DNA of 64,000 nt from the NCBI GenBank assembly GCA_903916755.1, contig CAIWXW010000087.1, forward strand, positions 62,001 through 126,000, in the 5' to 3' direction. Below the pieces are notes generated by a model that was given only the letters and a program-made list of their open reading frames with translations, made no database searches and had not been told where the DNA came from. Origin of the DNA: an uncultured Opitutaceae bacterium (GTDB taxonomy: Bacteria > Verrucomicrobiota > Verrucomicrobiia > Opitutales > Opitutaceae). Shown piece after piece: positions 16,845 through 35,039 of this stretch; position 1 is the first letter of the stretch; each line of letters starts with the position of its first letter. A program made the position numbers and the translations under genes.

Positions 16845-17306
16845 ATGGAAACACCCGCCGCCCAACCGCTTCCGGCCAACCCCTACAACCCCTGCGCCTG
16901 GATCACGGGGAACCCCCAGATTGGGGCGGATACATGGATCGGCGCGTTCACCCTCATTGACGGCCTCGGCGGCCTGCGGATCGGCCGCGGCTGCAATATC
17001 AGCTGCGGCGCCCAAATTCTCTCGCATTCGACCGTCCGCCGCTGTGTCACGGAAGGGCGGCATCCAACCCCGGACTTCAAGGCTACCACCTTGGGTGATT
17101 TCGTCTTCGTGGGCGCCAACGCCGTGATCCAGATGGGGGCGCTGATCGGCGACCACTCGGTTATCGGCGCCGGCTCGGTGGTGCTGGAGGACACGATCAT
17201 TCCGGCCTACTCTTTGGCCGTTGGCGTCCCCGCCCGGGTGGTGCGTGATTTGCGCCTCGAGGTCGGGGACTGGAGCCGCGCGGCCCGGGAGACCAAGCAG
17301 CCATGA
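16845..17306 (+). CDS. Hexapeptide-repeat acyltransferase
   Basis: Hexapeptide pattern IGADTWIGAFTLIDG...VIGAGSVVLEDTIIPAYSLAVGVPARVV. Confidence 0.85.
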   Translation: METPAAQPLPANPYNPCAWITGNPQIGADTWIGAFTLIDGLGGLRIGRGCNISCGAQILSHSTVRRCVTEGRHPTPDFKATTLGDFVFVGANAVIQMGALIGDHSVIGAGSVVLEDTIIPAYSLAVGVPARVVRDLRLEVGDWSRAARETKQP

Positions 17307-18232
17307 CCCGCCTCTCCATCGTGGTCGCGGCCTACAACGAGGAAACGAACCTTCCTCTGCTGCATCAGCGCGTGCTGGCAGTGAACTGGTCCGGCCTCGG
17401 CCTTGAACCCGAGTTCGTCTACGTCGACGACCACTCCAGTGATGGAACCTCCGATGTCTTGGCCCGATTCGGCGCGCAGGATCCGCGGGTTAAGGTCCTG
17501 CGCTTCTCTCGAAATTTCGGCAGCCACAAGGCCTTCACCGCCGGCCTTGAGCATTGCACGGGCGACGCCGCGGTCATCCTCGCCGCCGACCTGCAGGATC
17601 CGCCTGAGACCATCCCCCTCCTGGTGGAAAAATGGCAGCATGGCGCGCGTGTAGTCTGGGCCCAACGCAGCGACCGCGAAGGCGAGTCGCTGACGACCCG
17701 GCTCTTTTCCCGGTTATATTACCACCTGATGCGCCGTTTCGCCGAGGTGCGCCCGCCGCCGAAGGGCGCGGACTTCCTGCTGGTGGACCGCCAGGTGATC
17801 AATGCCCTCAAGGCCGCGCCGGAAAAGCATACGTCGCTGCTTTCCCTGATCCAATGGATGGGATTCGACCAGGATTACATTGAATACACCAAGGTGGCCC
17901 GCCACAGCGGACGATCAAAGTGGACGCTGCGAAAGAAGTTCAAACTCGCGGTCGATTCCTTCGTCAGTTTCTCCTACGCGCCGGTGAGGCTGATGTCCGC
18001 CGTGGGATTGGTCTTTGCCTTGAGCGGCTTTCTCTACGCGACCGTCATCATCGCACGCTCAATGATCCACGGCATTCCCGTGCAGGGATGGGCTTCGCTG
18101 ATGTGCGTGCTGTTGATCGTCTCGGGCGTGCAATTGGTGATGCTCGGAGTCCTGGGCGAATATCTGTGGCGCGCTTTCGACGAGATCCGCGGACGCCCGC
18201 GGTATATCGTGGAGCGACGGATCAATCTTTAA
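17303..18232 (+). CDS. GT2 glycosyltransferase of the GtrB/DPM1-like type with C-terminal transmembrane pair
   Basis: SIVVAAYNEETNLPLLHQRV, DDHSSDGTSDVL, ADLQDPPETIP; C-terminal hydrophobic pair ending LGEYLWRAFDEIRGRPRYIVE. Confidence 0.88.
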   Translation: MTRLSIVVAAYNEETNLPLLHQRVLAVNWSGLGLEPEFVYVDDHSSDGTSDVLARFGAQDPRVKVLRFSRNFGSHKAFTAGLEHCTGDAAVILAADLQDPPETIPLLVEKWQHGARVVWAQRSDREGESLTTRLFSRLYYHLMRRFAEVRPPPKGADFLLVDRQVINALKAAPEKHTSLLSLIQWMGFDQDYIEYTKVARHSGRSKWTLRKKFKLAVDSFVSFSYAPVRLMSAVGLVFALSGFLYATVIIARSMIHGIPVQGWASLMCVLLIVSGVQLVMLGVLGEYLWRAFDEIRGRPRYIVERRINL

Positions 18233-19406
18233 GCAGACCCGCCGCCGGCAGCGTGGCGAGCATCGCGGGAGTCACCGCGGCCACGGCCGTGATTTGGCCG
18301 CGAAACTCAGGTCCGGTGGTCGACCCCCCGATGAGGTTGTACCCCAGGATTATCTCGGAGGCGTTGGTGGGATGGCATGGGCTGCGGCCGGCCAGCGCCA
18401 GGCGGCCATCCAGCCAGATCGCGACGGAATCCCGCCAGCGCGATTCCGTCGCCGCAGCCTGGCCGGGCCGGTAAAGCGATCCCATGGTCAGGACCAGGTC
18501 ATGCGCGACTTTCAGGTCGATTTCAATCGGTGGGGAAACCAATCCGCCTACGGCCCAATGGTCGAAACCGAAACGAACATGATGGGCGTCGACAATCTGC
18601 GCATAGAGAAAATCGCCCTTGCCCGTGTGGCCAGTGACAATCAGCGGATCGGCCGCCGCATCGGGCACCACCGGAAAATGCACCTGCAGGCCCACCGCCC
18701 CGGGAAAGCGGGCGGCGGCCTCCGGCAAGGCGGAGCTCCACCGGCCGACCTGCAGGGCTTCAGCCAGGGCCAGACCGGGCTCCACCGGCCGGGCCGCGAC
18801 AATCTTCCCGGTAAAGAAGGGGTGCAGCAGGGCCGAGCCGATTTGGTTGGCGCCAATAAACGCGACCCCGCCCGCACCGGCATCTTGGAACACACCGCGG
18901 ACAAAAAACACCGTTTGCCCATCCAGTTCCACGAACAACAGGCGGCGCATCAGTTCAACGTCGGATGTGGCCCTTTTAGGGGCGGAGGACACCAGCGAGC
19001 CAGCGCCGATGAGAAGATGATGCGGCTTCTCCCGGTCAACCGCCACCGGCGCTGAATACACCACCCCATCCGCCGTGCTCTGCCAGCCGATCCGGATGCG
19101 GTCTAAGGCGGCATAGAAGATGAACACGCTGTCGCCATGGCCGGGCGACCCGGTCGCGACCAGCGGTTCAGCCCATCCGAGCGGACGCGCCGGCAAGACC
19201 AGCTCCATCCGAATCGGACCCGTAGCCGGCACGACGTGGGGTGCGCCCGCGGCGCGGCTCGCGGAAAGCAACATCAGGCTGAGCGGGAAGATCCCGATCC
19301 ACCGGAAGGATCCAGCCCAGCGGCACAGAGGGCGAACCGAGCTCGGTTGCCCCCGCCCTATGCAACGCTCCAGGCAGAGTCTCAGCATAGCAACGCATGC
19401 GGCCAT
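18222..19406 (-). CDS. Secreted module-only protein with two DHWG modules
   Basis: Candidate start at 19406 or 19388 gives a hydrophobic leader (FRWIGIFPLSLMLLSASRAAGA) followed by two modules (AEPLVATGSPGHGDSVFIFY..., ADPLIVTGHTGKGDFLYAQIVDAHHVRFGFDHWA...IGGSTTGPEFRGQI). Confidence 0.72.
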   Translation of the reverse strand: MAACVAMLRLCLERCIGRGQPSSVRPLCRWAGSFRWIGIFPLSLMLLSASRAAGAPHVVPATGPIRMELVLPARPLGWAEPLVATGSPGHGDSVFIFYAALDRIRIGWQSTADGVVYSAPVAVDREKPHHLLIGAGSLVSSAPKRATSDVELMRRLLFVELDGQTVFFVRGVFQDAGAGGVAFIGANQIGSALLHPFFTGKIVAARPVEPGLALAEALQVGRWSSALPEAAARFPGAVGLQVHFPVVPDAAADPLIVTGHTGKGDFLYAQIVDAHHVRFGFDHWAVGGLVSPPIEIDLKVAHDLVLTMGSLYRPGQAAATESRWRDSVAIWLDGRLALAGRSPCHPTNASEIILGYNLIGGSTTGPEFRGQITAVAAVTPAMLATLPAAGLLKD

Positions 19407-19557: not shown

Positions 19558-22536
19558 TCAATTACCGGCCCCATCTTCAATTGGAAACAGTCGCCCGGTA
19601 AATTCGGGATCGCTCGTCGAAAGGCCAATCTGGTTTCGACCAATCGTTAGCTCCTTCGGGTCGGAAGGATAGAAGTCACTCGTCTCGCTTAAGATCGACT
19701 TTCCATTGAGCCAGACCTGGATTTTGCCGCCGTCGGGGTGGGTCCAGGTCCCCTTTCCAAATTCGACGTCAATCGTCTGGTATCCGGCGCTGACCGGCAA
19801 TGGATCGCTCACCGGCCCGCCCTCCCCCCAATGGTCAAATCCAAGGCGAATCTGCCCCGGTCCCTCGTAATGCACGAAAACGCTGTCAGCCGCCCCCGCG
19901 TGGCCCGCCGTGAGCAAGGGCTCGCTTCGATTTGGCCGCGCGGTGGGAAACAGCGCCGCAAGATGGACGCGGCGACTGGGAGGCGTCCCTCCGGGCGCCG
20001 GCAGCAAGAGGGCCGGGACCGGGTCGAGCGGATAGCTTTGGCCTCCGAAAACCGGGGCGACGATCTTGTCCGGCGGCCCGTAATCGCGCCAGGCAACGAT
20101 GCGCTCGACCGCCGCGTCAAAGTACTCCGGGTGCAGATGCGGAACGATCACGCGATCAAGCATGACCAGACAAGCCTCACGCCGACGCTGGCCCTGTCCG
20201 GGGGTAGTCGACCCTGCATCCGGGCGCGCCCATTGCATCACGAGCGTATGGCGACCCGAGGCCGACACGGGCAAAGGATCAGTCCATGACCAGCCCGCCG
20301 CATCCCGCCAACCCAATGCCAGACCCTGGTCTGACCCTCGTATCGCCAGCAACCCGTGCTGGCCATCAGAACGGACCAGCGAAAGCAGGGGTTGCGCCCG
20401 GGCCGCGGCTTCGGATCCCGGAAGCCTGAAACGCAGGCCCACCACATGTTCACTGCGACCCGGCAAATCACGCTGTCCGGGTGGCGAGGCGTCGGCCGAG
20501 TTCAAGTGCGACGCGGGAGGGCCGAGGGCCGCGCGCGCCCAGGAATTCTCGACGAGGGCTCCCAGCACTGGCGATCGCATTGCTCCGCTGACCTCGTTGA
20601 GCGCCGCGGGAGCGAGGCCCAGCACCCGCCCGGAAAAACTCAGCTGCGCGGCCGTTCCACCAATGAGGTTTATCCCGAAGAAAATGTCGCGGGACGTGGC
20701 GGGCCACGCTTCCTGCTGCCAGTGAAAGACCACGCCGCCGTCGAGCACCACCAGGACCTGGTTTCGCCATCGATCGCGGGCCGGATCCTCCCTGGACCAA
20801 GCGCTATCCGGGCTCGGCAGAAGCGATCCCAACGATATCACCACCTCGTGCGTCTTGGCATAATCAATCTCGATGGGCGCGGAGATTGCGGCTCCGCTGC
20901 CCCAGTGATCGAGCCCGAAGGCGATGTGGCGTTGATCGATGTAGCGGACGAAAAGGAAATCAGCCCGGCCGGTGCGGCCGGTCGTCACGAGCGGTTCGGC
21001 GGTACCCGCCCGGTCGGACGGAAACACCAGCGACCAACGCACGGGGCCGGGGAACTGCGTGCCCGGCGCCGAATCGCGGTCCAAATCCACGGGGATCCGA
21101 TACAGCCGCATCGTCACATCATGCCGATTGATCTCGGCCCGTTGCGCCGTGTCATAGCCCTCGTATTGATAAGGTCGAAACTGGAGCGGGTGCCGATCAT
21201 GGAGCAGCGGTCGACTGGAGGGGAGCATCGGATCCAGCGGCAAACCCCATAGCGATTCGGCAAATGCCAGGCGGTAGGCATCATAGGAGTTTCCCGCGCG
21301 AACCACGCGGTCGGCCCGCCGCTGGAACTGGTCCGGGAAGACCTGCCGCAGGGGCCCGGAGAAATTTACGGCGGCCAGCAGCAAGACCATCCCGATGAAG
21401 GCCGCCGTCCAGCCACGGCGCGCATGAGAGCGCCGGGCAATGAAGCGCTCGATCCCGTAACCGGCGCAAAGGCATAGGAACGGGACGACACAGCGGACCC
21501 GCCGGCCCTGGACGGCAAAAAGGGGTATCACATCCGACAGCACGAGGAGCCCGGCCGTGACTAGCCCAAGGCCGCCGGCATACCAGGCCAGACGCCCAAA
21601 ACGCCGTTCGCGGCAGGCAGTCCAGAGCGCATACGCCAAAGCGGCCAGCCAAACCAGGAGGAGCCCGCCCTCCCCGTACCAAAGATATCCCCCCATCACC
21701 CGATGCCCGAACGGGAAATCTCCCTTGGCGATCACGCCCCACTTGTAATCCTCCGCCACCAGATCGATCCCAAGCAGGTGCCCCGCCGCCACAATGGGGA
21801 GAATCGAACCCACCAGACCGGTGCCCGACCAGAAGGCGCGGCTCCAGAAGCGGGATCCATTCCCCGCACCCAGCAGGGTGTAGAGGATCAGCATGCAGCC
21901 GCCGAGCAGCCAGTAACCGTTATAGACGAGGAAGCCCACGCCCGCGGCCGCCCCGACCAGGAGTGAATTGCGGACGGTGGCCTTTCCCAGGGCCAGCAGC
22001 AGCGCGGCCAGCATCGCGCAAAGGGCGATATCATACGGAAAAAAGTGTCGGGAGTAATAGAAGAGGCTGTTGGCTCCCGCTGCCAGGAAGGCGCACCACA
22101 GCGCCTCCGCCTCCCCAGCCCCGGCCTTTCGGGCCACGCGCCAGAGGAGATAGATCGCCAGCACGGAAAAGAGGCCAAAGTAGGCGGCGACCACCGCCGG
22201 GCGCGGGCCCGCCCATTCCTCATACAGGCCTGGCGGCACGCTGAACCACCGAAAGAGAATGTGGTCAGGATGGCCGAGGAGTTCTTCTCCGGCTTCGTGC
22301 CATTGGCCATGCAGAAGGTACCGGGCGGCGAGCCGACCGTCCGTATAGCGATCCTCGTCCGGCCAAAAGCCCTGCCCGCCCAGACTGGCCAGCCAGACCC
22401 GCAATGCGAACGAGACAAGTAACAACGCGGCCAGGAAGCGTCGATAGGATCGCGAACTGCTTACTCCAGGGGAAGAGGACTCAGGGTGCCGGCTAGTCAA
22501 GGCCATGAAGAAGGATCGCTTCGCTCCCGTTGGCAA
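19558..22536 (-). CDS. GT-C-like (ArnT/PMT-like, second N-terminal family) membrane protein with three DHWG modules
   Basis: WLASLGGQGFWPDEDRYTDGRLAARYLL; hydrophobic N-terminal half; C-terminal modules. Start could also be 22506 (MALTSRHPES). Confidence 0.83.
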   Translation of the reverse strand: MPTGAKRSFFMALTSRHPESSSPGVSSSRSYRRFLAALLLVSFALRVWLASLGGQGFWPDEDRYTDGRLAARYLLHGQWHEAGEELLGHPDHILFRWFSVPPGLYEEWAGPRPAVVAAYFGLFSVLAIYLLWRVARKAGAGEAEALWCAFLAAGANSLFYYSRHFFPYDIALCAMLAALLLALGKATVRNSLLVGAAAGVGFLVYNGYWLLGGCMLILYTLLGAGNGSRFWSRAFWSGTGLVGSILPIVAAGHLLGIDLVAEDYKWGVIAKGDFPFGHRVMGGYLWYGEGGLLLVWLAALAYALWTACRERRFGRLAWYAGGLGLVTAGLLVLSDVIPLFAVQGRRVRCVVPFLCLCAGYGIERFIARRSHARRGWTAAFIGMVLLLAAVNFSGPLRQVFPDQFQRRADRVVRAGNSYDAYRLAFAESLWGLPLDPMLPSSRPLLHDRHPLQFRPYQYEGYDTAQRAEINRHDVTMRLYRIPVDLDRDSAPGTQFPGPVRWSLVFPSDRAGTAEPLVTTGRTGRADFLFVRYIDQRHIAFGLDHWGSGAAISAPIEIDYAKTHEVVISLGSLLPSPDSAWSREDPARDRWRNQVLVVLDGGVVFHWQQEAWPATSRDIFFGINLIGGTAAQLSFSGRVLGLAPAALNEVSGAMRSPVLGALVENSWARAALGPPASHLNSADASPPGQRDLPGRSEHVVGLRFRLPGSEAAARAQPLLSLVRSDGQHGLLAIRGSDQGLALGWRDAAGWSWTDPLPVSASGRHTLVMQWARPDAGSTTPGQGQRRREACLVMLDRVIVPHLHPEYFDAAVERIVAWRDYGPPDKIVAPVFGGQSYPLDPVPALLLPAPGGTPPSRRVHLAALFPTARPNRSEPLLTAGHAGAADSVFVHYEGPGQIRLGFDHWGEGGPVSDPLPVSAGYQTIDVEFGKGTWTHPDGGKIQVWLNGKSILSETSDFYPSDPKELTIGRNQIGLSTSDPEFTGRLFPIEDGAGN
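19565..21050 (-). repeat. Array of three DHWG modules encoded in CDS 19558-22536 (approximate bounds)
   Basis: AEPLVTTGRTGRADFLFVRYIDQRHIAFGLDHWG; divergent AQPLLSLVRSDGQHGLLAIRG; SEPLLTAGHAGAADSVFVHYEGPGQIRLGFDHWG. Confidence 0.72.
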
Positions 22537-22542
22537 TCGGGA

Positions 22543-24972
22543 TCATGCACCGCCGGCCGGCTTGGCGTCGCTTGAAACTCGGCTGATCGCTTCGGGGAAT
22601 TCCTGCTCACAGGATGATGCCCCGATGCCGTTCTGCCCGATGTAAATATCCCGAGGATCGGCCGGATAGGCGGGGACCCGGGCGGTCCATACCCTTTTGC
22701 CGTCGAGGTCGACATCCAGCTCGGCCTTCGCGCCCGGTTCGGGCCCAAAGGGGGCCAGCGACGGCATCAGGATTCGCAGGCGATGACCGGCGCCCTCGGC
22801 GACCGGAACGTCCCCGCTCTCCCATAGGCCAATCCCCCAGTGGTCATAACAGAAATGCACCACTCCCGGCCGCACGAATCGCAAGAACAGGACATCACCC
22901 CGCCCGGTTTCCCCGGTGACGAGCAAAGGCAAACCGCGGTTGATCACGCCGCTCGGAAAAGACAGCTTCAGTTGCACCACTCCATCGCCGGTCGTCCCTT
23001 CGGGCGGCGGGGTATATGGCATGCGGCGGACTGACAGGATTGTGCCGGAAAATGGGGGAAAGGGGGCGCCGGCCCGGTGGTCGGCAACGTGCAGGCTGCC
23101 CGGCGATCCATCGTAGAAATAGCGGCGCGCATCGAAGGCAGTTTGCCCGTCGAGCGAGATCCGCAAACCCCGTGAGATGTCCGCCACCGCCGCATGGCTC
23201 TTGCCATCGAAGTACGGGTGGCCCAGCGGCGGGAACAAGGACCCCATCTGCACCTGCAGCCGATGAACCGTCCCAAAATCGACCGGAAGGAGGGGGCTCC
23301 AGTCCACGGCATAGTTCGTGTGGTGAAAACCCAGCTTCACATGCTGTCGGTCGATATAGTTCACCAGCACGTAGTCAGACTCATAGTCCCAGCCGGTGGT
23401 CAGCAGGAGCTGAAGCTTGCCGTCGAGGCCACGGGGAAAGCGCAGCGCAATCTCCAACGGCCCGAATTGGGTGCCTCCTAGCCGTTCAGCCGCGTAAACC
23501 GGCAGATCGAATCCATGGGACAGACGCCGATACAAAGCGGAATTCGACTGCCGGAGCAGATCATGCACCTGGAAGTTGAGCATCACGCCCACGAACACGC
23601 TGAAGGCGGCGGCCAGGCCGCCGACCCAGCGCAGGCCGGTTCGCCACGGGGATGCGACCAGCCTCTCCGCTCCCAGCAGACCGATGCAGGCCAGGAGCAT
23701 GAGGGTCGGCGTGAAGTCGACCATGTACCGGCCGGTCGCCGATACGAACGTCAGCAGCAGGCCGCAGACGGAGGCAAAGAAAAGCGCGGTCGTGCCGACA
23801 AAGGCCCGCAGGTCCCGCGCCTGCGCCTCCGATCGCCGCTGCCAGGCCAGCGGCGCCAGGAACGCCAGCCACGCAAAGGGGAAATTGGCGAACAGGCCAT
23901 AGACGTATTCGATTCCCGAATAGGCCGCGGGCACCGGCGGCGGGTGAATCATCTTGGCAAAGGGGAAATAGCGGCTCCATTGCGCAGGGGCAAAAAAGTA
24001 GACGATGGCGTTGAACTTCACCAAGCGCAGGCTGAATAGCTTGCCGACCGCGCCGTAGGGGTTGGTGAACTGGTAGGTGGTCCCGAACTCAAAAGGGTCG
24101 CCGAATCGCGCGAAATTATACCAGGCGAGCCCGGCCATGACCAAGGCGAAGCCTCCCCCCAGGGCGGCGGCCCGCCCCCACCATTGCCGGTTCGGGATCC
24201 ACCGCCAGTGACCTTCCCGTCGCCCGCGCCACCAAAGGGCGCACCCGGGAACCGCGAATGCTGCCACCCCCGCCACATAGTTGGCCCGCGCCCCCACCGC
24301 GAGTCCGAGGCAGAGTCCCGCGGCGAACAGCCACGCGGCCATCCGCCGGGAATGCCAGGCCCGATAGATGCAACCCAGCATGAGCATCGCCAGGCAATAG
24401 CCCGCGGCGATCGGCTCCTCCCACAAACTCGGACGTCGCAGCACCGCATGGGTCATCGCCGCCAGTCCGAGGACCGAAATTCCCGCCACCAGCACGACCG
24501 CGCCCGAGTCGGGAAAATAGCGCCGCCGCAATGCCAGCCACAGCACGGCCGAGGCCACAAAGCCGCCGCCGGTAAAAATCAGGACCGCGTAATTCTGGGG
24601 CAAGTCGTGCCGGGTCAGCCACCGCCATGGCAGCCGCAACACGACGACCGGGGTTACGCCGTAATTGATGTAGATGTGGCCATGATAGAGAGAGGTGTCG
24701 TGCGGCAGTTCCGCGCCGTTACGCTGGCGCGGATCGAAGGGATCCTTGGCCGCGAGCAACCGGGGATCGGGCGCAATCGGCAGGTAGAGGTGGCCATGGA
24801 GGAATCCGTCCGTCAGCAGCTGGTAGTAGTCTCCTTGCGCCTCCGACGGGAACAGCGGCTGCGCGTCCGTGGTGTTGCTCGTGACCGTCCAGCGGTAAAA
24901 GAGCAGGATGGCCGTCACCAGGCAGAGCGCGAGCACCTGATCCCGCCGGGTCGCGGCGATTTCCGGTTTCAA
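22543..24972 (-). CDS. GT-C-like membrane protein (same N-terminal family as 602-3952) with two DHWG modules
   Basis: GDYYQLLTDGFLHGHLYL, HDTSLYHGHIYINYGVTPVV; modules ending in LGFHHTNY and FCYDHWGIG. Confidence 0.82.
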   Translation of the reverse strand: MKPEIAATRRDQVLALCLVTAILLFYRWTVTSNTTDAQPLFPSEAQGDYYQLLTDGFLHGHLYLPIAPDPRLLAAKDPFDPRQRNGAELPHDTSLYHGHIYINYGVTPVVVLRLPWRWLTRHDLPQNYAVLIFTGGGFVASAVLWLALRRRYFPDSGAVVLVAGISVLGLAAMTHAVLRRPSLWEEPIAAGYCLAMLMLGCIYRAWHSRRMAAWLFAAGLCLGLAVGARANYVAGVAAFAVPGCALWWRGRREGHWRWIPNRQWWGRAAALGGGFALVMAGLAWYNFARFGDPFEFGTTYQFTNPYGAVGKLFSLRLVKFNAIVYFFAPAQWSRYFPFAKMIHPPPVPAAYSGIEYVYGLFANFPFAWLAFLAPLAWQRRSEAQARDLRAFVGTTALFFASVCGLLLTFVSATGRYMVDFTPTLMLLACIGLLGAERLVASPWRTGLRWVGGLAAAFSVFVGVMLNFQVHDLLRQSNSALYRRLSHGFDLPVYAAERLGGTQFGPLEIALRFPRGLDGKLQLLLTTGWDYESDYVLVNYIDRQHVKLGFHHTNYAVDWSPLLPVDFGTVHRLQVQMGSLFPPLGHPYFDGKSHAAVADISRGLRISLDGQTAFDARRYFYDGSPGSLHVADHRAGAPFPPFSGTILSVRRMPYTPPPEGTTGDGVVQLKLSFPSGVINRGLPLLVTGETGRGDVLFLRFVRPGVVHFCYDHWGIGLWESGDVPVAEGAGHRLRILMPSLAPFGPEPGAKAELDVDLDGKRVWTARVPAYPADPRDIYIGQNGIGASSCEQEFPEAISRVSSDAKPAGGA
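22550..23465 (-). repeat. Array of two DHWG modules encoded in CDS 22543-24972 (approximate bounds)
   Basis: GPLEIALRFPRGL...LLLTTGWDYESDYVLVNYIDRQHVKLGFHH; GVVQLKLSFPSGV...LPLLVTGETGRGDVLFLRF...FCYDHWG. Confidence 0.7.
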
Positions 24973-25088: not shown

Positions 25089-27626
25089 ATGCCTATCCCG
25101 CTCATCCGCCGCCTGGCCTTGGCGACCGAACAGGAAAAATTTGACGCGCCGCTGCTGCTCGGCGAAGTCGCCATCGTATTTTGGGTCACCCAGGTCTGCA
25201 TCATCTTTGGAGGGATGAACCTACCCTGGTGGCCGGAGGCATTCTGGCTGGCGCTGGTGGGCTCCGCCATCTCATGGCGACTCGGCCTGCACCAGCGAAG
25301 CCGGGCCGGGGCCGCCTTCATCCTCCGTTCGCTCGCGGTGGCTCCCTTGCTCGCCCTGGTTATCTTTGCCGGCCTGGCCCTGGTTGGCTTCGAGGTCAGC
25401 CCCGCCACCGCCTTCTGGATTGGCTCGGCCATCGCCCTGCTGTTCCTGGCTTTCCATCTGTGCTTTGGGGCGGCGCGGGCGCGCTGGCCGGATGCGCCCC
25501 TCGAGATCTTTCGATGGCTGGCGATGGCCGCCGCTGCCATCGCGCTCTTGCTCCCCTTCTATGGCCGCCACGGCTTCGGCTCCGGGGATGTCAATTGGTA
25601 CGTCGCCATGCTGGCCGACGTAATCGTGCAGATTCGCCATGGCGTCTTCCCGGTATGGGTCGGCCAAAGCGAGTACGCCTTCAATGGTGCCATGTCGCCG
25701 CTGCGGCTCGCCCCTTTATTCCAATATGCGGGAGGCCTGCTCGACCTGCTTACGTGCCATGTCCTCGATCCCCTGACGCTGGCCAATGCCGTGGTCAGCG
25801 CCTTCGGTCTTTTGACCGCTGCCAGCGCGTACGCGGCCATCCGGCTGGCGCTGCCGAAGCGACCAAACTTGGCCTGCCTTCTCGCACTGCTCTGGCTGGC
25901 CTGCCCGGGTGTGCTGGCTCCGCTCTATGCCGGGTTTCAATATATGGAATGGATCGCGATGCCGTTCCTTCCGATCATGGCGTATGGCTGCTGGCGGCTA
26001 TGGGTCCACGATGACCGCCCGGCCCGGCTGGCGATCGTCGCCGGGCTCGCTGGAATGATGCTCGCCCATACCCCCACGGCGCTCTGGGGCGGCTTGTTTG
26101 CGGCCGGAATCTACCTCGCCCACGCCGTCGTCCGGAAGAACTGGCGCGCGCAGGCGGTACAGATCGCCGGCATGGCCGCCGTTTTCGCGATTCTCGGGGG
26201 TTTTCCGATCGGGTCGGTATTCGCCATCGACAATCGGGCCAGCATGGCCGGCTCGGGCCATCCCGCCTCGGTCGGCCTGGAGGCTATTTTCCCGGATAAT
26301 TTCCGCCCGATCAACCTCAACGACATGGGGCTCAAAAGCTACCAGCTCGGCTACGCGCTGATCGCGGTCGCTCTGCTCGCGCTCATCCTGCTCGCATGGC
26401 TGCGGCCCCGCGGTGGCCTGGTCTTCATCGGGACCATCCTGGTGGTCATACCCCTGACCACGCCGGTGCCGGGGCTCACGAATTGGATTTGGGCCCACGT
26501 CCCGGGCATCGTCATCACCATCACCAATTCACCGCCGCAGCGGCTATTCGAATTTTGGGCCATTTTCATCGTGTTCGCCTTTGTTCTGGCGATGAGCGAC
26601 TCCCGCCTGGTGCGTCGCCGGGGCCTCGAAGCCGGAATTCTGCTCTCCCTCGCGCTGGGCGGCCTCTGGTCGGCCCGCGAGGCCGCGAAGATGGTGGGCG
26701 GGCTCGCGCCAACCTTTGTCGGGGCCGCCGACGCCGCCATCGGCCTGCGGCCGGAAAACCTCCAACTGGCACGCTACGCCTATGCCACCTTCGCCCACGC
26801 GCCGGGATATGCCAGCCACGGGCACGTCGATCCCCTGCTGGAAAACCGGCTGCTGGATGCCTCGGGCCGCACGGTGCTGGCCGCCAACGCCGACGCGGCT
26901 GCACCCCAGTTGCGCGCCGACAGTGACATCGCAAACGTGCCGCGGCTCATCCAGGCCGGCCGTTGGCTGGCCACCAGCGACAACCACCGTCCGATTTACA
27001 AATTGGCCCCGTCGCTTCGCCTCGAGTCGGGACAGGCCTATGCCCTTCGCCTGGAATTCATCCATCCGGAAAAGGAAGGCGTGCTGCAGATCGTCACCCC
27101 CGAAATGTTCCGGGAATACCTGCTGCCGGACTCGGGCATCGGTCTAGCCCCTTCGTCCCTCGCCTTTGGTGCGCTGCCGACCAGCAGCCCGGTGGTCTCG
27201 CTTCAGCAGGGAGCGGGCAAGGCCGCCACGCCCGAGGCGCGGTTCGTGGCCCCGATTTCGTATGGCGAAGAGTTTGAATTCGCACGGTTTTGGCTCTTCA
27301 CCTACGACTTGGCAGACCTGCCGGTGCGCGTTTCGTCCTGGATTCCCTATCGGGCGGAAACCGAAACCGCGTTGCCCGCTTTTCTGGAAACTCCGCGCAT
27401 TTGGCAACGCGGCTGGGAAGCGAAGGTCAACGGCCGGCGGGTAGTCACCCGAGAGTCCGCGCAGCATCTCGTCATGGTGCCGCTCGCGCCGGGCACCAGT
27501 GAGGTGGAGTTGCGCTATCGTCCGCCCCTGTGGCTGGCGGGATGGTTCTGGCTCGCCGTGCTCGGCTGGATCCTTCTGCTGGGAGGCACCGTTCGCCAAA
27601 TCAGTCGCCCGACCGCTACCGCCTAG
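25089..27626 (+). CDS. Large polytopic membrane protein, YfhO-like (tentative)
   Basis: ~846 aa, many hydrophobic segments, C-terminal WQRGWEAKVNGRRVVTRESAQHLVMVPLAPGTSEVELRYRPPLW. Confidence 0.65.
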   Translation: MPIPLIRRLALATEQEKFDAPLLLGEVAIVFWVTQVCIIFGGMNLPWWPEAFWLALVGSAISWRLGLHQRSRAGAAFILRSLAVAPLLALVIFAGLALVGFEVSPATAFWIGSAIALLFLAFHLCFGAARARWPDAPLEIFRWLAMAAAAIALLLPFYGRHGFGSGDVNWYVAMLADVIVQIRHGVFPVWVGQSEYAFNGAMSPLRLAPLFQYAGGLLDLLTCHVLDPLTLANAVVSAFGLLTAASAYAAIRLALPKRPNLACLLALLWLACPGVLAPLYAGFQYMEWIAMPFLPIMAYGCWRLWVHDDRPARLAIVAGLAGMMLAHTPTALWGGLFAAGIYLAHAVVRKNWRAQAVQIAGMAAVFAILGGFPIGSVFAIDNRASMAGSGHPASVGLEAIFPDNFRPINLNDMGLKSYQLGYALIAVALLALILLAWLRPRGGLVFIGTILVVIPLTTPVPGLTNWIWAHVPGIVITITNSPPQRLFEFWAIFIVFAFVLAMSDSRLVRRRGLEAGILLSLALGGLWSAREAAKMVGGLAPTFVGAADAAIGLRPENLQLARYAYATFAHAPGYASHGHVDPLLENRLLDASGRTVLAANADAAAPQLRADSDIANVPRLIQAGRWLATSDNHRPIYKLAPSLRLESGQAYALRLEFIHPEKEGVLQIVTPEMFREYLLPDSGIGLAPSSLAFGALPTSSPVVSLQQGAGKAATPEARFVAPISYGEEFEFARFWLFTYDLADLPVRVSSWIPYRAETETALPAFLETPRIWQRGWEAKVNGRRVVTRESAQHLVMVPLAPGTSEVELRYRPPLWLAGWFWLAVLGWILLLGGTVRQISRPTATA

Positions 27627-29256
27627 CTTCGGGTGCCACCCGGTCGCCGAGCGATTCGATCCGAATAATCCGGCCCGTAAACCGCGGCCCGCTCGTCGAG
27701 CCCCCGGCTAAATTAATCCCGTAGGCAATCTGACCTGGACTGACGTGACTCGGAGGCTGTCGGCCGGCCAGTACCGTCCTGCCATCCAAATCCACTCGCA
27801 CCGCTTCCGGCTGGGTGGCGAGGGCCGGACGGCCGCTATAAAACGAAGAACCCTCCGGGGGAAAGAGGGCGCCCATGCTGATGGTCAACACGTGCCGGCT
27901 GCCCGGAGCGATCGCCAGGGAAGGCGAGACCAGCGCACTCCATCCCCAGCGATCCATGCTGATGCGGAGCCGCCCGTCTTCCTCGTAACTGACGTAGACC
28001 ATGTCGGCCACACCCGTCGTACCGGCCACGACGAGGGGATCGCCGGTGCCCGGCAGCCAGTGCGTGGGAAAGGTCACCTCGAGTCGGACCGCCCCGGGAT
28101 AACCGGCCCACGAGCCATCCGGCGACGGCAGGTGCGGAAACGCAGCGGCAACCGCCGCCGCCCCGGTCCGTCCCGGATCCAGCCGCGCCACTCGGCTGAA
28201 GAGTCCGCCAAACGCGGGTTCGATCCAATTCCAGCCGAGAACATTCTGCCCCAAGACCAGATCCCCGGGCGCGACCGAGGGCGAGGGCGCCGTCGTGGCC
28301 AGCACGGCCCGTCCCGCCCATTCAACCCAGAGTATGAACGGCAGCAGGCGGGGAGCAGGCTCCCCGGCTTGGGGCGCCGCCCCCACAGGCGGATAGAGAA
28401 AGCCGGCGCTCAGTCGCAGGGAGTACGCGGCTCCGGGTTGGTATTCGATGGCTTCCGACAATATTCCTTCCCAGCCCCAGGCGGCATATCCAATCCGCAT
28501 ATGGCGCTCACCATCATAATGAACATAGAAAAGTGCGGCCGCTCCCGGCCGGCCGCCCGAAATCAAAGGTTCGCTGTGTCCGGCCACGCCCTGGGGCAGA
28601 CTCACGGTGAGTTCGATCGGACCAGGGTGCGCCCCGAGGCCCTGGGGAAGTTCCGGCAGGAAGTCGGTCAGATGCATCACCGCTTGGCGCGCCTGGTTGG
28701 CGTCGCCACGCTCGGCCATTGCCACGGTTCCGTTGAAGAACGGCGCGGAGGTGCCGCTTCCGATCACGTTGGCGCCGAATACCACCTGTTGCGTCCGGAG
28801 CGGAAAGGCCTGCTTGCGATAGAGCAGCCTTCGGCCATCAACCGAAACCCACAGGAGGTCGCGAAGCTGGGCGGGAAGACCCGGAACCGTCAAAGCCCCC
28901 AGCGGGGCCAGCGCCCCCCAAACGATCTCAAGCTGGTGGGGCTCATCGACCGCTGCCGAAAAGGGTGGTGAATAGGAAAGTCCCTGCCCGATGTCGTCCA
29001 CGCCTATCCGGGCTTGGCCGTCGGCGTCCCACAGCCAGAAAATAAGCGAGCCCTGTCCGGGTCCACCGATGGCCAGCAACGGCTGGCCCCGACCGCGGTC
29101 ATACGACAGGCGCACCGTGAGCCGCAGGGGACCGGCCAGCAACCCGGGCTCGATGGCTTGGCCGGGACGCAACATCCCGTTCCCCGCGGCGAACGCCATC
29201 ACGCCCGAGGCGACGATGATGACCGCCATGCAAAAACCCCTCGTTGACGGTCTCAT
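27616..29256 (-). CDS. Secreted module-only protein with three DHWG-type modules
   Basis: Start at 29256 overlaps the GtrA stop (ATGA); hydrophobic leader MRPSTRGFCMAVIIVASGVMAFAAG; three modules incl. GDPLVVAGTTGVADMVYVSYEEDGRLRISMDRWGW...LAGGSTSGPRFTGRI. Confidence 0.75.
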   Translation of the reverse strand: MRPSTRGFCMAVIIVASGVMAFAAGNGMLRPGQAIEPGLLAGPLRLTVRLSYDRGRGQPLLAIGGPGQGSLIFWLWDADGQARIGVDDIGQGLSYSPPFSAAVDEPHQLEIVWGALAPLGALTVPGLPAQLRDLLWVSVDGRRLLYRKQAFPLRTQQVVFGANVIGSGTSAPFFNGTVAMAERGDANQARQAVMHLTDFLPELPQGLGAHPGPIELTVSLPQGVAGHSEPLISGGRPGAAALFYVHYDGERHMRIGYAAWGWEGILSEAIEYQPGAAYSLRLSAGFLYPPVGAAPQAGEPAPRLLPFILWVEWAGRAVLATTAPSPSVAPGDLVLGQNVLGWNWIEPAFGGLFSRVARLDPGRTGAAAVAAAFPHLPSPDGSWAGYPGAVRLEVTFPTHWLPGTGDPLVVAGTTGVADMVYVSYEEDGRLRISMDRWGWSALVSPSLAIAPGSRHVLTISMGALFPPEGSSFYSGRPALATQPEAVRVDLDGRTVLAGRQPPSHVSPGQIAYGINLAGGSTSGPRFTGRIIRIESLGDRVAPEARR

Positions 29257-29648
29257 GCGGGCGACGGCCCGCGGAAGATCCGCGCCTGCATGAACAGGTA
29301 ACTGATGGCAGTCTGCGCGACGTTGGCCAAGCCCGCTTCCAACCAAGCGGGAAAGGTGGTCCAGCGGGCCAGCGCCGTAAATACAATCCACTGAAGGGAA
29401 AAGGTGATTCCGACCATGACCAGGTATTCCCCGACCTGGCGTCCCGTGACGGACTGCTGGTTACCGAACGTCCACCATTTGTTCAGGCAAAAATGCACCC
29501 CCAAGGCGGGCGGGTAAGACAAGAGAAACGCCACCTGCCGCCCCACCAGATGCCCCCAAGCCCAGTTGAGGCCCATGAAGATCCCGGCCACGATGACACC
29601 CACCACGGCGAAGCGCACCAGGCGGCGGACCAAGGATCGGGAGAGCAT
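29253..29648 (-). CDS. GtrA family membrane protein (putative polyprenyl-phosphate-sugar flippase)
   Basis: ~131 aa with four hydrophobic segments; RFAVVGVIVAGIFMGLNW ... FLLSYPPALGVHFCLNKWWTF ... YLVMVGITFSLQWIVF ... ANVAQTAISYLFMQARIF. Confidence 0.82.
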   Translation of the reverse strand: MLSRSLVRRLVRFAVVGVIVAGIFMGLNWAWGHLVGRQVAFLLSYPPALGVHFCLNKWWTFGNQQSVTGRQVGEYLVMVGITFSLQWIVFTALARWTTFPAWLEAGLANVAQTAISYLFMQARIFRGPSPA

Positions 29649-29745: not shown

Positions 29746-31665
29746 CTACTCCCGGCCAGTCGCCCTCGCGGCAGGACCAAAAGCCATGATCGCCCCAGAA
29801 AATTGGGCTTCGGCCGTCGAACCGCCAATAAAGTTAACCCCAAAGGAGATGTCGCTGCGACCGACGGGATAAAATGACTCCGCCATCGAAAAAACGAGGT
29901 GTCCGTCAAGCCTGACCCAAAGCTGGTCGCGCCGATCGGAGCCGGGCGGATTCGCCCCTGCGGTCCCCTTCTTCTCCGGCGGCAAAAGAAAGCCGGCAAA
30001 AAAGATGATCTCGTGGGGCTGACCGTAGTCGATGGCAACGGGGGAGGAAATCGTCGCTCTCACTCCCCAGTGATCCAACCCAAAGCTCACGTGGCCGCTG
30101 TCAATGTAGTGAATATAAAAAATGTCCCCGCGACCCGTGCGACCCGTCACCACGAGCGGCTCGGAATGGCCCGCTACCGAGCTCGGCAATCGCAGCACAA
30201 ACCGGACCGGGCCGGGATAGCCGTCCCAGCGCGATGCCTGACGGTCAAATCCTCCCGGCCACGCGACCAGCCGCATCGCTACGTCATGGGCGTTGATGGC
30301 ATTCCGCTGCGGAGCCCCGTAGCCCTCATACTGGTATGGGCGAAACTGCAGAGGATGCGGCCGACGCAGTATGGCGGGGGCAAGCGGCAGGCCGTCGTCC
30401 AGACTGCGCCCCAGCAAACTCCCGACAAAGGCCAGCCGATACGCATGGTAGCCCGGTTGCCGCGCCGCGGCGGCCGCCGCCAGCCGCTGAAATTGTCCCG
30501 GGAAAACCTGGCGCAACGGAATCGAGAAATTCCAGGCCGCGCAGCCGGCCGCCAGAAGCGCTATCGCCGCGGCCCAAACCCGGCCCCTGGCCCTGCGGGC
30601 GCGAATGAAACGCGCAATGCCCAAGGCGGCGCCCAAGCATAGGAACGGCACCAATTGGCGCACCCGGCGGCCCTGGACGGTAAACACGGGGAACACATCG
30701 GAGAGGACAATCAGCCCAACCCACCCCAGAGCCACGCCGCCCGCATACCAGGCCAGCCGTCCTGCGCGCTCCGCACCCCGGGCGACCCAGGCGGCATAGC
30801 CAAAGGCCACCAGCCACACGATCAGCAATCCGCCCTCGGCATACCAAAGGTAACCCGTGACCACCTCGCGGCCATAGGGAAAATCTCCCTGGGCGATGGA
30901 AGCGATATTGGCATCCTGGGCGACCAGATGAAACCCCAGCGCCCGGCTCAGGCTGACGACCGGCAGGAGCGCGGTGAGGAGCCCCAGGAGCGCGAACAGA
31001 CCGCGCGCGGCAAATCGACGCCAACCGCCCGCCCCCAGGATGACGTGCAAGGCCAGCACGCATCCTCCCAGCAGCCAATAGCCATTGTAGATGAGGAAGC
31101 CCAAAGCGGCGAGGATGCCGGCGATCCACGAATTTCGCGCGGAGGGGGGGCCAAGCGCAAAACAGAGGGACCCCAGCATCGCACAGAGCGAGATGTCGTA
31201 GGGGAAGAAATGCCGCGAATAGTAAAAAAGGCTGTTGGCGCATGCGGCCATATAAGCCGCCCACCACGCTTCCGTCTCGTCCGCGCCCGCCCGCCGTGCG
31301 ACCCGCCAGACCAGGTAGATCGCCAGGACGGAAAATAGCCCGAAGTACGCGGCAGTCAGCGGCAGGTTAAGGCCGATCACGTGCTCGAGCAGGGCCGGCG
31401 GCAGGCAGCAGAACGGGAAAAGGGTATGAATGGGCTGGCCGAAGAGCGCCACCGCCGCTGCCTTCCATCGGGCGTGCACGAGTTCGTCAGCGGCGACTTC
31501 GGCAATCGCATATCGGCCCTCATCGTCCCAGAACATCTGCCCGCCCAGCCAAGCGAGCCAAAGGCGAAGGGCGAAGGCCGCCGACAGCAGGATCGCCAGG
31601 TTGAGCCGAACCCGCCGGGAGCCGACCGGAGTGCCTGATTCATCAGAGTAGGAGCCGTCGCTCAT
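29746..31665 (-). CDS. GT-C-like membrane protein (same N-terminal family as 19558-22536) with one DHWG module
   Basis: LAWLGGQMFWDDEGRYAIAEVAADELVH; HPLQFRPYQYEGYGAPQRNAINAHDV shared with the paralog; SEPLVVTGRTGRGDIFYIHYIDSGHVSFGLDHWG. Confidence 0.83.
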   Translation of the reverse strand: MSDGSYSDESGTPVGSRRVRLNLAILLSAAFALRLWLAWLGGQMFWDDEGRYAIAEVAADELVHARWKAAAVALFGQPIHTLFPFCCLPPALLEHVIGLNLPLTAAYFGLFSVLAIYLVWRVARRAGADETEAWWAAYMAACANSLFYYSRHFFPYDISLCAMLGSLCFALGPPSARNSWIAGILAALGFLIYNGYWLLGGCVLALHVILGAGGWRRFAARGLFALLGLLTALLPVVSLSRALGFHLVAQDANIASIAQGDFPYGREVVTGYLWYAEGGLLIVWLVAFGYAAWVARGAERAGRLAWYAGGVALGWVGLIVLSDVFPVFTVQGRRVRQLVPFLCLGAALGIARFIRARRARGRVWAAAIALLAAGCAAWNFSIPLRQVFPGQFQRLAAAAAARQPGYHAYRLAFVGSLLGRSLDDGLPLAPAILRRPHPLQFRPYQYEGYGAPQRNAINAHDVAMRLVAWPGGFDRQASRWDGYPGPVRFVLRLPSSVAGHSEPLVVTGRTGRGDIFYIHYIDSGHVSFGLDHWGVRATISSPVAIDYGQPHEIIFFAGFLLPPEKKGTAGANPPGSDRRDQLWVRLDGHLVFSMAESFYPVGRSDISFGVNFIGGSTAEAQFSGAIMAFGPAARATGRE

Positions 31666-34600
31666 GGGGCGGCCGGATTGGAAACCGCTTGCGGCTCAAA
31701 ATCCTCCATGGGCACGATTTCCCCGCCAAATCCCAATCCGCTGGTCGACAGCCCGACCGGGTTGGCTCCCACCTTTACCGCGTTGCTCAGGGTCGCGTAG
31801 AAGACCGCCGGGGCATCCAGCAGCCGTTCACCATTGAGACTGACCACAATTCGATCCTGGCCACCGGTCGTCCAAGCACCCCGGCCAAACTCCACCTCCA
31901 TTTGATTAAATCCATCCGCTGCCACCGGTACGGCTCGGGATACCGGACCACCCACGCCCCAATGGTCGAATCCGATCCTCACCCGGCCGTTCTGCTCGTA
32001 GCGCACGTACAGTCCGTCGGCTCTTCCGCGCTGGCCGGCCGTGACCAGCGGTTCATTCCGGCCGACGCGGTCTGAAGGAAACCGCACGGCGAGCCGGAAA
32101 TGGCGCAAAGGAAGGTCGGCCGCATCCATCGCCAGCAGGGTGCGAATTTCCGGCGCAGGTTCAATGGCGCCGGCAAAATGCGCGGCAATTTCGGAATCAG
32201 GCCAGGGACTGCTCCAAGCCGTGACGTCGGTGACGGGAGCCGCGAAAAAATCCGCCCTGGTCAGCGGGCAGATGGTCCCGTCCACCAGGATCACGGTCGT
32301 AATGGCCCGGTTCTGCGCGCGCGGGCCAGCGCCCTGGCCTGCGGCCAGCCGCCACTGCAGCCCAATCGTGTGAACCATTGCGTTCGCACCGCCGACCTCG
32401 CGGCTCCACCAGCCGGCCGCGTCAAGCCAGCCGATCAGGATTCCCGTTCCCCTCCGGCGGATCGCCAGCAGGCCCCGCTCTCCATCGGCCCGGCTGAAGT
32501 TCAGCAGCGGCTGCCAGCGCGAAGCATCCGGCGGGAGCCGGAACCGGACTGCGACGGCACTTTCGCCATGCGCGGGCGAGTAGCTCCGGCTCACGTTCGC
32601 GCCATCAGTCCGCGCCAGCGCCAGCACGGCGCCCCCAAACGTATCACGAGCCAGCGACGACTGAATGACGCTCGCCCCCAGCGCTTCCTGCCCATATGAG
32701 AACGGCTGCAGCGGAGCCGGATCCAGCAATATGGGCTTCCCTTCAAGGAAGAGGGAGAGGCGATAGCGCGGCAGTCCCCCTCGCTCCGTCACGGGATCGA
32801 ACCAGAGATCAAGGGTCTGCGGCTGCGCATAATCCACCGGGATTTCGGTCGAACCGATCAGGCCACCGCCGATCTCATCGTGTAAAAGGACAACGGTATG
32901 GGGATCGCGGTATTGCAGAAGAAAGGCGTCACCGACCGGCCAGGTTCCAGTGGTCACCAGGGGCTCGGCCAGGCCAAAACGGTCGGCGGGCAGCCGCAGG
33001 ACGAGCCGATACCCCCAGCCGGCGCCCGGCCGGGGGCGGAGTCCGGTCAAGTCAGGCACGGTTTCAGCGAGCGGCCGAAGCCGACCGGTGAATCGCTCGA
33101 ACCCAGCCCCCGCCCAAGGATGGCGCCGACCGACCAGAGTCTGTCCGGGGGAAGCTGGATGCGCGAGCGAGCTCAGGCGGAAAACATCGATGCCGTCCAG
33201 CAAGACGCGGTTGGACGTCGAGAGGCGCTGCATATCCGCCGTGCTCGCGTCGCCGTACCAAGGATGCCCGATGGGCGGATAGAAAGCCCCCAGCTGCACC
33301 GTCAACCGGCGGGTTTCACCCGGAACGACGGCAAAGGCGGGCCCTTGGGGCCCGCTCACCTGGTCGTCGCTGATCTGGTTGTTGGTGAGCACGAGCTGGG
33401 CCCGGCCGGGCTCAAGGTAGTGCACCATGAGCGCGATGCCATCCAGCGGCGGCCCGGCGCTGATCAACGGCTCCGAGGCGCCGGGCCGCGCGGCGGGAAA
33501 GGTGACGGCGAAGATGCGGGGGCCGAACCGCGGCGCGGTGAGCCTAAAGACCGGCCAGACCAACCGATTCACGGTGCGTTCCAAGCGCGCATAGCCGATT
33601 GGATTGACGCGGCGCATGAATCCCATCGTCTCAATGCTGATGCCGAGGTTGAAGACCGCGACGACTGCGGCGCCCGCCACGCCGACAACCAGGAACGCTC
33701 GGCGCCAAAACGGCCGCGAAAGGGCCGAGCCCTCGATCAGGAGGCCGCCCGTTGCAAGTACCAGCGCCGGGTGAAAATCCAACAGGTATCGGTTAGCCCT
33801 GACGGAAATGCAGGCCAGCGCCAAAAAATTGGCGGTAAACCACCAGCCCAGGAGAATGGCGATGCCCAACCGCCGGGAGTCGCCTTCGGCGCGGCTTTCA
33901 CGCCCGGCCAGCGCCAACAAAACAAGGGCGCCGAACCAAAGCAGGCAGAAGCACTGGCCATGCACCGGTTCGATGCCGATGTAGCCGGGCGGGCGGCCCG
34001 TCTCGGAGCCCTCGGCGAAGAAAGGAAATAGCCAACCGGTCGCCGGGAAGGTAAGGTAGTAAAGCTGGAGGTTGTGCCAGAAGTACCGGAAACCAAAAAA
34101 GGCGGCGGCGCTGCTGCCCATTTGGTAGCTGTGCCCGAACTCGAGGGCGTTGCCGAAGCGCCGATAATTATAAAGGAGCAAACCGGCGCCACAGACTGCG
34201 GCGGGCGCGAGCGCAGCCAAGATCCAAGACCAAGCCGGCGCGGCAGAACCGCCGGCCCGTGACCTGGTCCTGGCCAGGGCCCAGCCAAGCACGAAGAGCA
34301 GCACGGTCGCTCCAACCAGCAGATCTGGCCGCGAACCGACCGCGAGGCCCGCGCACAAGCTGGCCAGGGCCAGCCATCCTCGCGTGCGGTTCGGCCGCAG
34401 GATCGCAAGGGCGGCGAAAAGGAGGAAGGCCGTGCTCCAGGCCATGCCGGCGGTCACCGCCACCTCGTACATCTGAGGTTTGCGGAGCGTCACCGGCAGC
34501 GCCGAACCAAAACCCCACGCCACGGCCGCTGCCAGCAGGGCCACGCGACTGGCGCCCTGAGACAAATGCCGGCGCCACGCGAGCAACAGCACCAAGCCGG

Positions 34601-35039
34601 CCCCGAATCCCATGACACCCTGCACCGCCACCACCACCAGCTGATTCAGCTCCCAGCCGGTGAGCAGCTGGAAAGGAAGAAAGAACGTCAGCGCCGGCGT
34701 AACCCCAAAATAAAGGTAGTAGTGGTTTCGAAAGCGGCTGGCATCGAGGAGGAAGTCATGACTTGCCTGAGCTCCCGCCATCGGGTGCGCCTCGGGCGGC
34801 CCCACCGCGGCATTGAGGTAGAGATGGCCGCGCGCCATCCCTTCGGCCAAGAGGTTATAATAGTCACCTTGGTGCCGCGCGACCCATGGTTCGGACCCGT
34901 TTGAATCCACCGTCCATGCATAGAATGCAATCACGGCCAGCACCACTGGCAGGACGGCCCAGAAATCGCTGGCAAGCGAAGGGCGAGACGCAGCCATGGC
35001 ACTCGGCTTGGGGTCCATCCGACGGGGCGGCGCGGTCAC
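31662..35039 (-). CDS. GT-C-like membrane protein with four DHWG modules
   Basis: QGDYYNLLAEGMARGHLYLNAAVG, HDFLLDASRFRNHYYLYFGVTPALTFFLPF; four C-terminal modules; start overlaps... stop of 31662-35039 overlaps start of 29746-31665 by 4 bp. Confidence 0.83.
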   Translation of the reverse strand: MTAPPRRMDPKPSAMAASRPSLASDFWAVLPVVLAVIAFYAWTVDSNGSEPWVARHQGDYYNLLAEGMARGHLYLNAAVGPPEAHPMAGAQASHDFLLDASRFRNHYYLYFGVTPALTFFLPFQLLTGWELNQLVVVAVQGVMGFGAGLVLLLAWRRHLSQGASRVALLAAAVAWGFGSALPVTLRKPQMYEVAVTAGMAWSTAFLLFAALAILRPNRTRGWLALASLCAGLAVGSRPDLLVGATVLLFVLGWALARTRSRAGGSAAPAWSWILAALAPAAVCGAGLLLYNYRRFGNALEFGHSYQMGSSAAAFFGFRYFWHNLQLYYLTFPATGWLFPFFAEGSETGRPPGYIGIEPVHGQCFCLLWFGALVLLALAGRESRAEGDSRRLGIAILLGWWFTANFLALACISVRANRYLLDFHPALVLATGGLLIEGSALSRPFWRRAFLVVGVAGAAVVAVFNLGISIETMGFMRRVNPIGYARLERTVNRLVWPVFRLTAPRFGPRIFAVTFPAARPGASEPLISAGPPLDGIALMVHYLEPGRAQLVLTNNQISDDQVSGPQGPAFAVVPGETRRLTVQLGAFYPPIGHPWYGDASTADMQRLSTSNRVLLDGIDVFRLSSLAHPASPGQTLVGRRHPWAGAGFERFTGRLRPLAETVPDLTGLRPRPGAGWGYRLVLRLPADRFGLAEPLVTTGTWPVGDAFLLQYRDPHTVVLLHDEIGGGLIGSTEIPVDYAQPQTLDLWFDPVTERGGLPRYRLSLFLEGKPILLDPAPLQPFSYGQEALGASVIQSSLARDTFGGAVLALARTDGANVSRSYSPAHGESAVAVRFRLPPDASRWQPLLNFSRADGERGLLAIRRRGTGILIGWLDAAGWWSREVGGANAMVHTIGLQWRLAAGQGAGPRAQNRAITTVILVDGTICPLTRADFFAAPVTDVTAWSSPWPDSEIAAHFAGAIEPAPEIRTLLAMDAADLPLRHFRLAVRFPSDRVGRNEPLVTAGQRGRADGLYVRYEQNGRVRIGFDHWGVGGPVSRAVPVAADGFNQMEVEFGRGAWTTGGQDRIVVSLNGERLLDAPAVFYATLSNAVKVGANPVGLSTSGLGFGGEIVPMEDFEPQAVSNPAAP
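31680..33525 (-). repeat. Array of four DHWG modules encoded in CDS 31662-35039 (approximate bounds)
   Basis: SEPLISAGPPLDG..., AEPLVTTGTWPVGD..., WQPLLNFSRADGERGLLAIRR..., NEPLVTAGQRGRADGLYVRYEQNGRVRIGFDHWG. Confidence 0.72.

Follow-up and report, generated by a model that had tools for sequence, protein, structure and literature searches.

Three-component glycosylation systems are the closest described counterparts of the locus analyzed here. The gtrA-gtrB-gtrC loci for O-antigen modification in Shigella and Salmonella encode together a GT2 that loads polyprenyl phosphate, a GtrA protein and a periplasmic GT-C. To our knowledge, direct flippase activity has not been demonstrated even for the GtrA prototypes. 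The CsbB-GtcA-YfhO system and the Csd/CflA system of L. lactis join a PgfS/CsbB-like GT2 to YfhO-like or PMT_2-like GT-Cs, and provide precedent for a single GtrA-type flippase common to several GT-Cs (PMC8035078, PMC7389260). In mycobacteria, EmbA/B/C and AftD are GT-Cs with C-terminal lectin-like tails, several of which use one lipid-phosphate sugar, the DPA donor, alongside the GtrA-like protein Rv3789 (PMC3044687, PMC11127046), and the carbohydrate-binding (CBM) tail of EmbC binds the acceptor (PMC3044687). ORF12 (GT136) of Citrobacter youngae O1, the GT-C of a three-component system, likewise ends in a CBM that binds the unmodified O-polysaccharide acceptor; under the assay conditions catalysis did not depend on this CBM, whose role has been called unclear (PMC11127046). 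A 2021 review speculates that some three-component GT-Cs need a separate acceptor-binding protein (PMC8035078). Since systems of GT2, GtrA and GT-C, a common flippase and CBM tails are already established, the parts list of such a locus is not new.

The window is a stretch of 64,000 nucleotides at positions 62001-126000 of contig C87 (144,528 bp) in a draft genome of 3.35 Mb. As initially annotated, it holds a GT2, a GtrA and polytopic proteins bearing modules marked by the motif DHWG. The Shigella and Salmonella Gtr loci have one GT-C and no lectin arrays, whereas the window encodes several unrelated, module-bearing candidate GT-Cs in dispersed order and its relatives encode GtrA-GT-C fusions. 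In the CsbB-GtcA-YfhO and Csd/CflA systems each GT-C has, as a rule, its own GT2 partner; the modules of the window belong to a different, unnamed family and stand in arrays. No sequence relation to the mycobacterial Emb and AftD proteins was shown, and a module family common to unrelated GT-Cs, with secreted versions, is undescribed there. The C. youngae system differs in its one GT-C, one immunoglobulin-like CBM, MATE flippase and pentofuranose donor. The features of the window are as follows.

1..592, plus strand: C-terminal end of a 1541-aa YfhO-like protein with 3 modules that starts left of the window (C87:57967-62592)
602..3889, minus strand: predicted type A GT-C with 4 modules
4077..6920, minus strand: predicted type A GT-C with 3 modules
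11226..17306, plus strand: putative amino-sugar pathway, upstream of gtrB
17303..18232, plus strand: GtrB/PgfS/ArnC-like GT2 (Pfam GT2, NCBIfam PgfS/ArnC), predicted polyprenyl-phosphate sugar transferase
18222..19274, minus strand: module-only predicted secreted protein, 2 modules (start uncertain, open frame to 19643)
19558..22404, minus strand: predicted type B GT-C with 2 clear modules plus a degenerate stretch resembling a module (PMT_2, E 1e-5)
22543..24972, minus strand: predicted type A GT-C with 2 modules, the modelled protein
25089..27626, plus strand: YfhO-like candidate GT-C without modules (PF09586, 24.3 bits, under cut-off)
27616..29229, minus strand: module-only predicted secreted protein, 3 modules, in convergent orientation to the YfhO-like gene
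29253..29648, minus strand: GtrA, putative polyprenyl-P-sugar flippase (PF04138, E 3.7e-11, above cut-off)
29746..31665, minus strand: predicted type B GT-C with 1 DHWG module (53% identity to 19558-22404)
31662..34997, minus strand: predicted type A GT-C with 3 clear modules (start possibly 35039)
35188..38948, plus strand: conserved right flank with MocA oxidoreductase, HddA-like heptose-7-P kinase, acyltransferase and nucleotidyltransferase

The GT2 at 17303-18232 matches Pfam Glycos_transf_2 (E 3e-27) and carries two C-terminal TM helices; its top NCBIfam match is PgfS (225.9 bits), followed by ArnC (168.4 bits), both under their equivalog cut-offs. The GtrB-like GT2 with a C-terminal TM pair and the GtrA reported in the initial annotation both stand. 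The gtrB gene, which overlaps the preceding acetyltransferase gene by 4 nt, is the final gene of the amino-sugar operon and has orthologues of 75-79% identity in the cassettes of relatives; gtrA shares the locus but not that operon. The operon encodes an SDR, a MocA-type dehydrogenase, an acetyltransferase, a DegT aminotransferase, a LegB-like dehydratase, a PseC/LegC-like aminotransferase and an acetyltransferase, with UDP-GlcNAc 3-dehydrogenase-like and NeuD-like acetyltransferase families among them, in a gene order before gtrB identical to that of three related loci (L058, L086, L087). These dehydrogenase-, aminotransferase-, dehydratase- and acetyltransferase-like families point to an N-acetylated amino sugar as the donor. 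Beyond the module genes, the HddA-like kinase of the right flank is 77-88% identical to kinases beside gtrA in relatives; this D-glycero-D-manno-heptose 7-phosphate kinase-like protein, the oxidoreductase and the nucleotidyltransferase at 35188-38948 form a heptose-nucleotide block that anchors the cassette family-wide.

Two gtrB-like genes occur in the island. The second PgfS/GtrB-like gene, left of the window at C87:51814-55550 (L026), overlaps by 4 nt a gene for a YfhO-like candidate GT-C with one module. Farther left, in a single frame cut by the contig end (C87:3-2528; L002, L024), a GtrA domain precedes a polytopic type D domain, with a Nudix-like stretch recognized by eye between them. 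With this second GtrB-like gene and this GtrA-containing fusion on the contig, the single gtrA/gtrB pair proposed for the locus is possibly non-exclusive.

At least six DHWG-bearing GT-C-like proteins had been claimed for the interval 17303-35039. Six proteins with a polytopic N-terminus and modules do occur in the window, four of them in that interval, with those at 602-3889 and 4077-6920 outside it; the protein ending at 592 is a seventh polytopic protein which, like the module-less YfhO-like protein and the two module-only proteins, had escaped the initial annotation. Their description as GtrC-like transferases held for the predicted GT-C fold of the N-termini and failed for a single GtrC family, because three unrelated N-terminal families (type A, type B and YfhO-like) occur in the window and two more (types D and E) on the contig. 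All-against-all comparison of N-termini across contig C87 gave seven proteins of type A, two of type B and three YfhO-like (two with modules), plus type D and type E. Pfam and NCBIfam scans returned no Gtr-type (serotype-specific) name for the candidate GT-Cs. Among 17 type A members scanned against Pfam there was no credible match, a lone Rnf-Nqr match in one of the 17 being taken as spurious, and the NCBIfam scan gave type A no name; PMT_2 was reached at threshold in one of six type B members, and PF09586 was matched by 7 of 11 YfhO-like members. In the window, the type A gene at 31662-34997 and the type B gene at 29746-31665 overlap by 4 nt. The stretches 18222-24972 and 27616-34997 each run from type A through type B (and gtrA) to a module-only protein, and this repeated order together with the identity of the type B pair suggests an old segmental duplication. 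Elsewhere, a 1934-aa frame at L048:10843-16647 places two candidate GT-Cs, one YfhO-like and one of type B, in one polypeptide along with three modules, and a 561-aa polytopic protein at window positions 7470-9155, with no Pfam match and 45-53% identity to proteins in the islands of several relatives, is possibly a further GT-C.

An AlphaFold model of the type A protein at 22543-24972, built from 17 sequences, reached pLDDT 85.8 and pTM 0.87, and Foldseek matched its membrane part to the oligosaccharyltransferase AglB (5.6e-4), ArnT (2.1e-3) and EmbA-EmbB (2.6e-3). The type B model (29746-31665, six sequences) is weak, and matches STT3, Pmt4, PglB and ALG9. A GT-C fold for the N-termini is supported by these models, more firmly for type A than for type B, with caution called for by Foldseek E values of 5e-4 to 3e-3 and by the type B pLDDT of 61; the YfhO-like protein is a candidate through its Pfam match under cut-off. 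The likeness to ArnT and PMT enzymes expected in the initial annotation was thus recovered (ArnT by type A, Pmt4 by type B), and N-termini of another fold were not what the models gave. Alignment of type B identified an invariant D48-E49 (DE) in the first outer loop. The invariant residues of type A (D92, R289, E295 and R415-Y416) are all placed outside by a topology of 11 helices that was fitted by hand after the first result was seen, and that has 14 K/R per 52 residues of short inner loops vs 3 per 26 of short outer loops. A 12-TM-helix topology, also drawn by hand, was dropped because charged loops fell outside.

To assess whether these genes keep company with gtrA and gtrB, we analyzed their neighborhoods in relatives. 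Of 20 gtrA genes, 13 have a module no more than 2.5 kb away, against 0.51 expected at random placement (P about 1e-17), a figure that describes linkage and not independent events since the genomes are akin. Such proximity is found in 12 of the 15 genomes holding both features, and in the window the distance is 156 positions. The gtrA gene overlaps a gene for type B with four modules by 1 nt in L057 and L059 and by 4 nt in L061, and in L049 a type A gene starts 6 nt after the end of gtrA. In G006 (L060:7469-11146, 1225 aa) GtrA is fused to type A and three modules, and G228, from a second genus, encodes such a fusion as well (L073:12765-16061, 1098 aa). The predicted co-occurrence of DHWG genes with gtrA/gtrB was therefore seen as proximity, gene overlap and fusion, and these genes did not prove normally to occur without gtrA/gtrB. 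The flanks of the cassette are constant, with amino-sugar genes and gtrB on the left and MocA oxidoreductase, HddA-like kinase and nucleotidyltransferase on the right, and the middle varies. The minimal version, in G007 (L058), consists of gtrB, a YfhO-like gene with three modules and gtrA. That of G008 (L061) has type B with four modules, gtrA and type A with three, with gtrB cut at the contig end. G002 and G003 (L057, L059) carry YfhO-like genes with three and with one module, type B with four and gtrA, G002 adding one module-less YfhO-like gene. With two type B, two type A, one YfhO-like and two secreted module protein genes plus gtrA, the window is an enlarged version of this cassette between the same flanks, and one to five candidate GT-Cs accompany one gtrA and one gtrB across the series. 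In G009 (L063:3471-6647), the GT-Cs between gtrB and gtrA give way to a protein of 1058 aa that bears the endosialidase chaperone domain Peptidase_S74. The gtrA gene is not confined at this site to genomes with modules, as G010, G012 and G027 have it beside the same right block without strong modules; the Gtr core thus looks older than the module tails, which would have been added to it.

Conserved linkage within a polysaccharide island argues for a common pathway and is not proof of a common donor. In our reading, the interval is probably a cassette of variable content that belongs to a three-component, Gtr-type system for periplasmic glycosylation, in which the GT-Cs recognize a shared acceptor through swappable lectin-like tails. 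The upstream operon would make an N-acetylated amino-sugar nucleotide, the GtrB-like GT2 would load that amino sugar onto polyprenyl phosphate, and GtrA would flip the polyprenyl-P-sugar. GT-Cs of the type A, type B and YfhO-like families would then take the sugar from the flipped donor at the periplasmic face and transfer it to different positions or acceptors, with the periplasmic C-terminal laminin-G/galectin-like arrays and the two secreted module-only proteins holding the acceptor glycan. We infer catalysis, flipping, the sugar and lectin activity from protein families and modelled folds. The earlier interpretation is thereby retained for the GT-C fold, the lectin-like fold and the gtrA/gtrB linkage, and is revised for the GT-Cs of the interval (four, not one GtrC family) and for the extra GtrB-like gene and GtrA domain on the contig; its suggestion that the arrays measure the acceptor glycan found no support.

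The island could instead house separate pathways, with gtrA/gtrB feeding one GT-C, for example the YfhO-like protein, and types A and B using other donors (the product of the other GtrB-like protein, or lipid-diphosphate units), perhaps to polymerize or ligate the same surface polysaccharide. The position of gtrB immediately upstream of the YfhO-like gene with three modules in L045, L051, L057 and L058, the pairing of the second gtrB-like gene with another YfhO-like gene, and the resemblance of type B to oligosaccharyltransferases are consistent with such a division. We nevertheless consider it unlikely, because the gtrA fusions and overlaps involve type A and type B genes and not YfhO-like genes, and because the G008 cassette, made of types A and B, has no YfhO-like gene.

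The DHWG motif is the signature of an approximately 145-aa repeat whose family is unnamed in Pfam. Searching with an iterated HMM gave 21 modules in the window, spread over nine frames and all at E < 1e-34, which rules out chance or low complexity as their source, and 40 modules genome-wide, mostly on contig C87 between 2.6 and 95.5 kb. Pfam Laminin_G_3 was not matched above cut-off (one of 19 modules matches, at E 0.018), and sequence searches of the PDB with the modules gave no convincing match; likeness to solved lectins is visible in the fold alone. Against the PDB, Foldseek matched the type A tail to laminin LG4-5 (best E 2.6e-8), neurexin LNS and tandem galectins and the type B tail to galectin and CBM66, with CBM40 also among the lectin matches of module tails, which supports a jelly-roll beta-sandwich of the laminin-G/galectin, lectin-like fold. 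A phylum-wide sample of 388 genomes, each with few candidates scored, yielded modules in five, all from one family; among 57 nearer relatives, 15 carried them. When a collection of 84,980 species was queried with five DHWG modules, in a search that reaches close relatives only, 12 loci were recovered, all in Opitutaceae/Opitutia, so the host of the window is most likely an Opitutaceae bacterium of Verrucomicrobiota. Two other genera (L053:14970-17126 and L054:12226-14391) place the module behind TM helix 1 rather than C-terminally, in a gene directly downstream of a gtrB-like gene.

Laminin-G and neurexin LNS, the best Foldseek matches, are folds that often bind protein, and with arrays of up to four and secreted module-only proteins the modules might serve as spacers or docking domains joining GT-Cs and secreted proteins in one periplasmic complex. 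Galectins, CBM40 and CBM66 match as well, however, and the sole experimentally tested GT-C tails bind acceptor glycan (PMC3044687, PMC11127046), which makes a non-lectin role improbable.

The distribution of modules along the arrays is consistent with the proposed acceptor-binding role. In the 50 type A, type B and YfhO-like proteins with at least two modules, the DHWG-type motif occurs in 3 proximal and 41 distal modules. A tree of 177 modules requires a minimum of two changes of GT-C type among proximal modules (about 14.9 when shuffled) and of seven among distal ones (about 14.8 when shuffled), and module position changes 4 times vs 33.6 shuffled. The tree is a quick one without a mixture model, and the identity table is sturdier: distal modules are as similar within as between GT-C types (33.1 vs 33.0%), whereas proximal modules are more similar within types (30.7 vs 24.8%). 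The proximal module thus appears to descend with its enzyme, and the distal DHWG module to have been exchanged between unrelated GT-C families, or homogenised. Under the proposed mechanism, the proximal module would be fixed to its enzyme and the distal one interchangeable between enzymes, as expected if the feature it binds is common to the acceptors.

Modules may also be supplied in trans. The YfhO-like protein at 25089-27626 is the orthologue of the relatives' YfhO-like proteins with three modules (reciprocal best hits, 42-46% identity) and stops before the modules, as does its orthologue in L048. In both loci the convergent neighbor of the module-less gene encodes a module protein with a signal peptide, the signal peptides of the two module-only proteins of the window being called by eye, and in L043 a less related module-less YfhO-like gene adjoins a secreted module protein. 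The cassettes with the fused version (L057, L058, L059) have no secreted module protein; the numbers are small throughout this comparison. The neighborhood would fit an origin of the protein at 27616-29229 as a split-off tail of the adjacent YfhO-like enzyme, but the modules of that protein do not clearly have YfhO-like tails as their nearest matches, and we retain the idea in its functional form alone. We tentatively suggest, as a possibility on the lesser side of even, that unrelated GT-Cs depend on one gtrA/gtrB pair and share an interchangeable distal lectin module, in cis when fused or in trans as secreted arrays beside module-less YfhO-like proteins, so that acceptor recognition may be passed on independently of the catalytic part. 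A protein acceptor, as with PgfS/PgfM of Streptococcus mutans, is similarly improbable: PgfS is the top curated GT2 match and the YfhO-like protein weakly matches the C-termini of PgfM1/M2 (E 2-3e-3), but the PgfS score of 226 bits is far below the equivalog cut-off of 500, sugar-nucleotide and polysaccharide genes dominate the island, and lectin-like tails suit a glycan acceptor.

In the literature searched we did not meet the module family, its arrays, its spread over at least five GT-C families, its secreted forms, the GtrA-GT-C-module fusions or the cassette series, which is not proof of their absence. The analysis provides a module family unnamed in Pfam, whose DHWG modules may serve as a marker for GT-Cs that Pfam misses, such as type A. 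The cassette bears on how three-component GT-Cs choose their acceptor. Nature offers matched sets here: the same YfhO-like protein with three fused modules or, next to a secreted module protein, with none; one to five candidate GT-Cs per gtrA/gtrB between constant flanks; GtrA-GT-C fusions; and the spread of a single module family over at least five GT-C families. Such sets would make recognition in cis versus in trans, and the service of several transferases by one flippase, directly testable.
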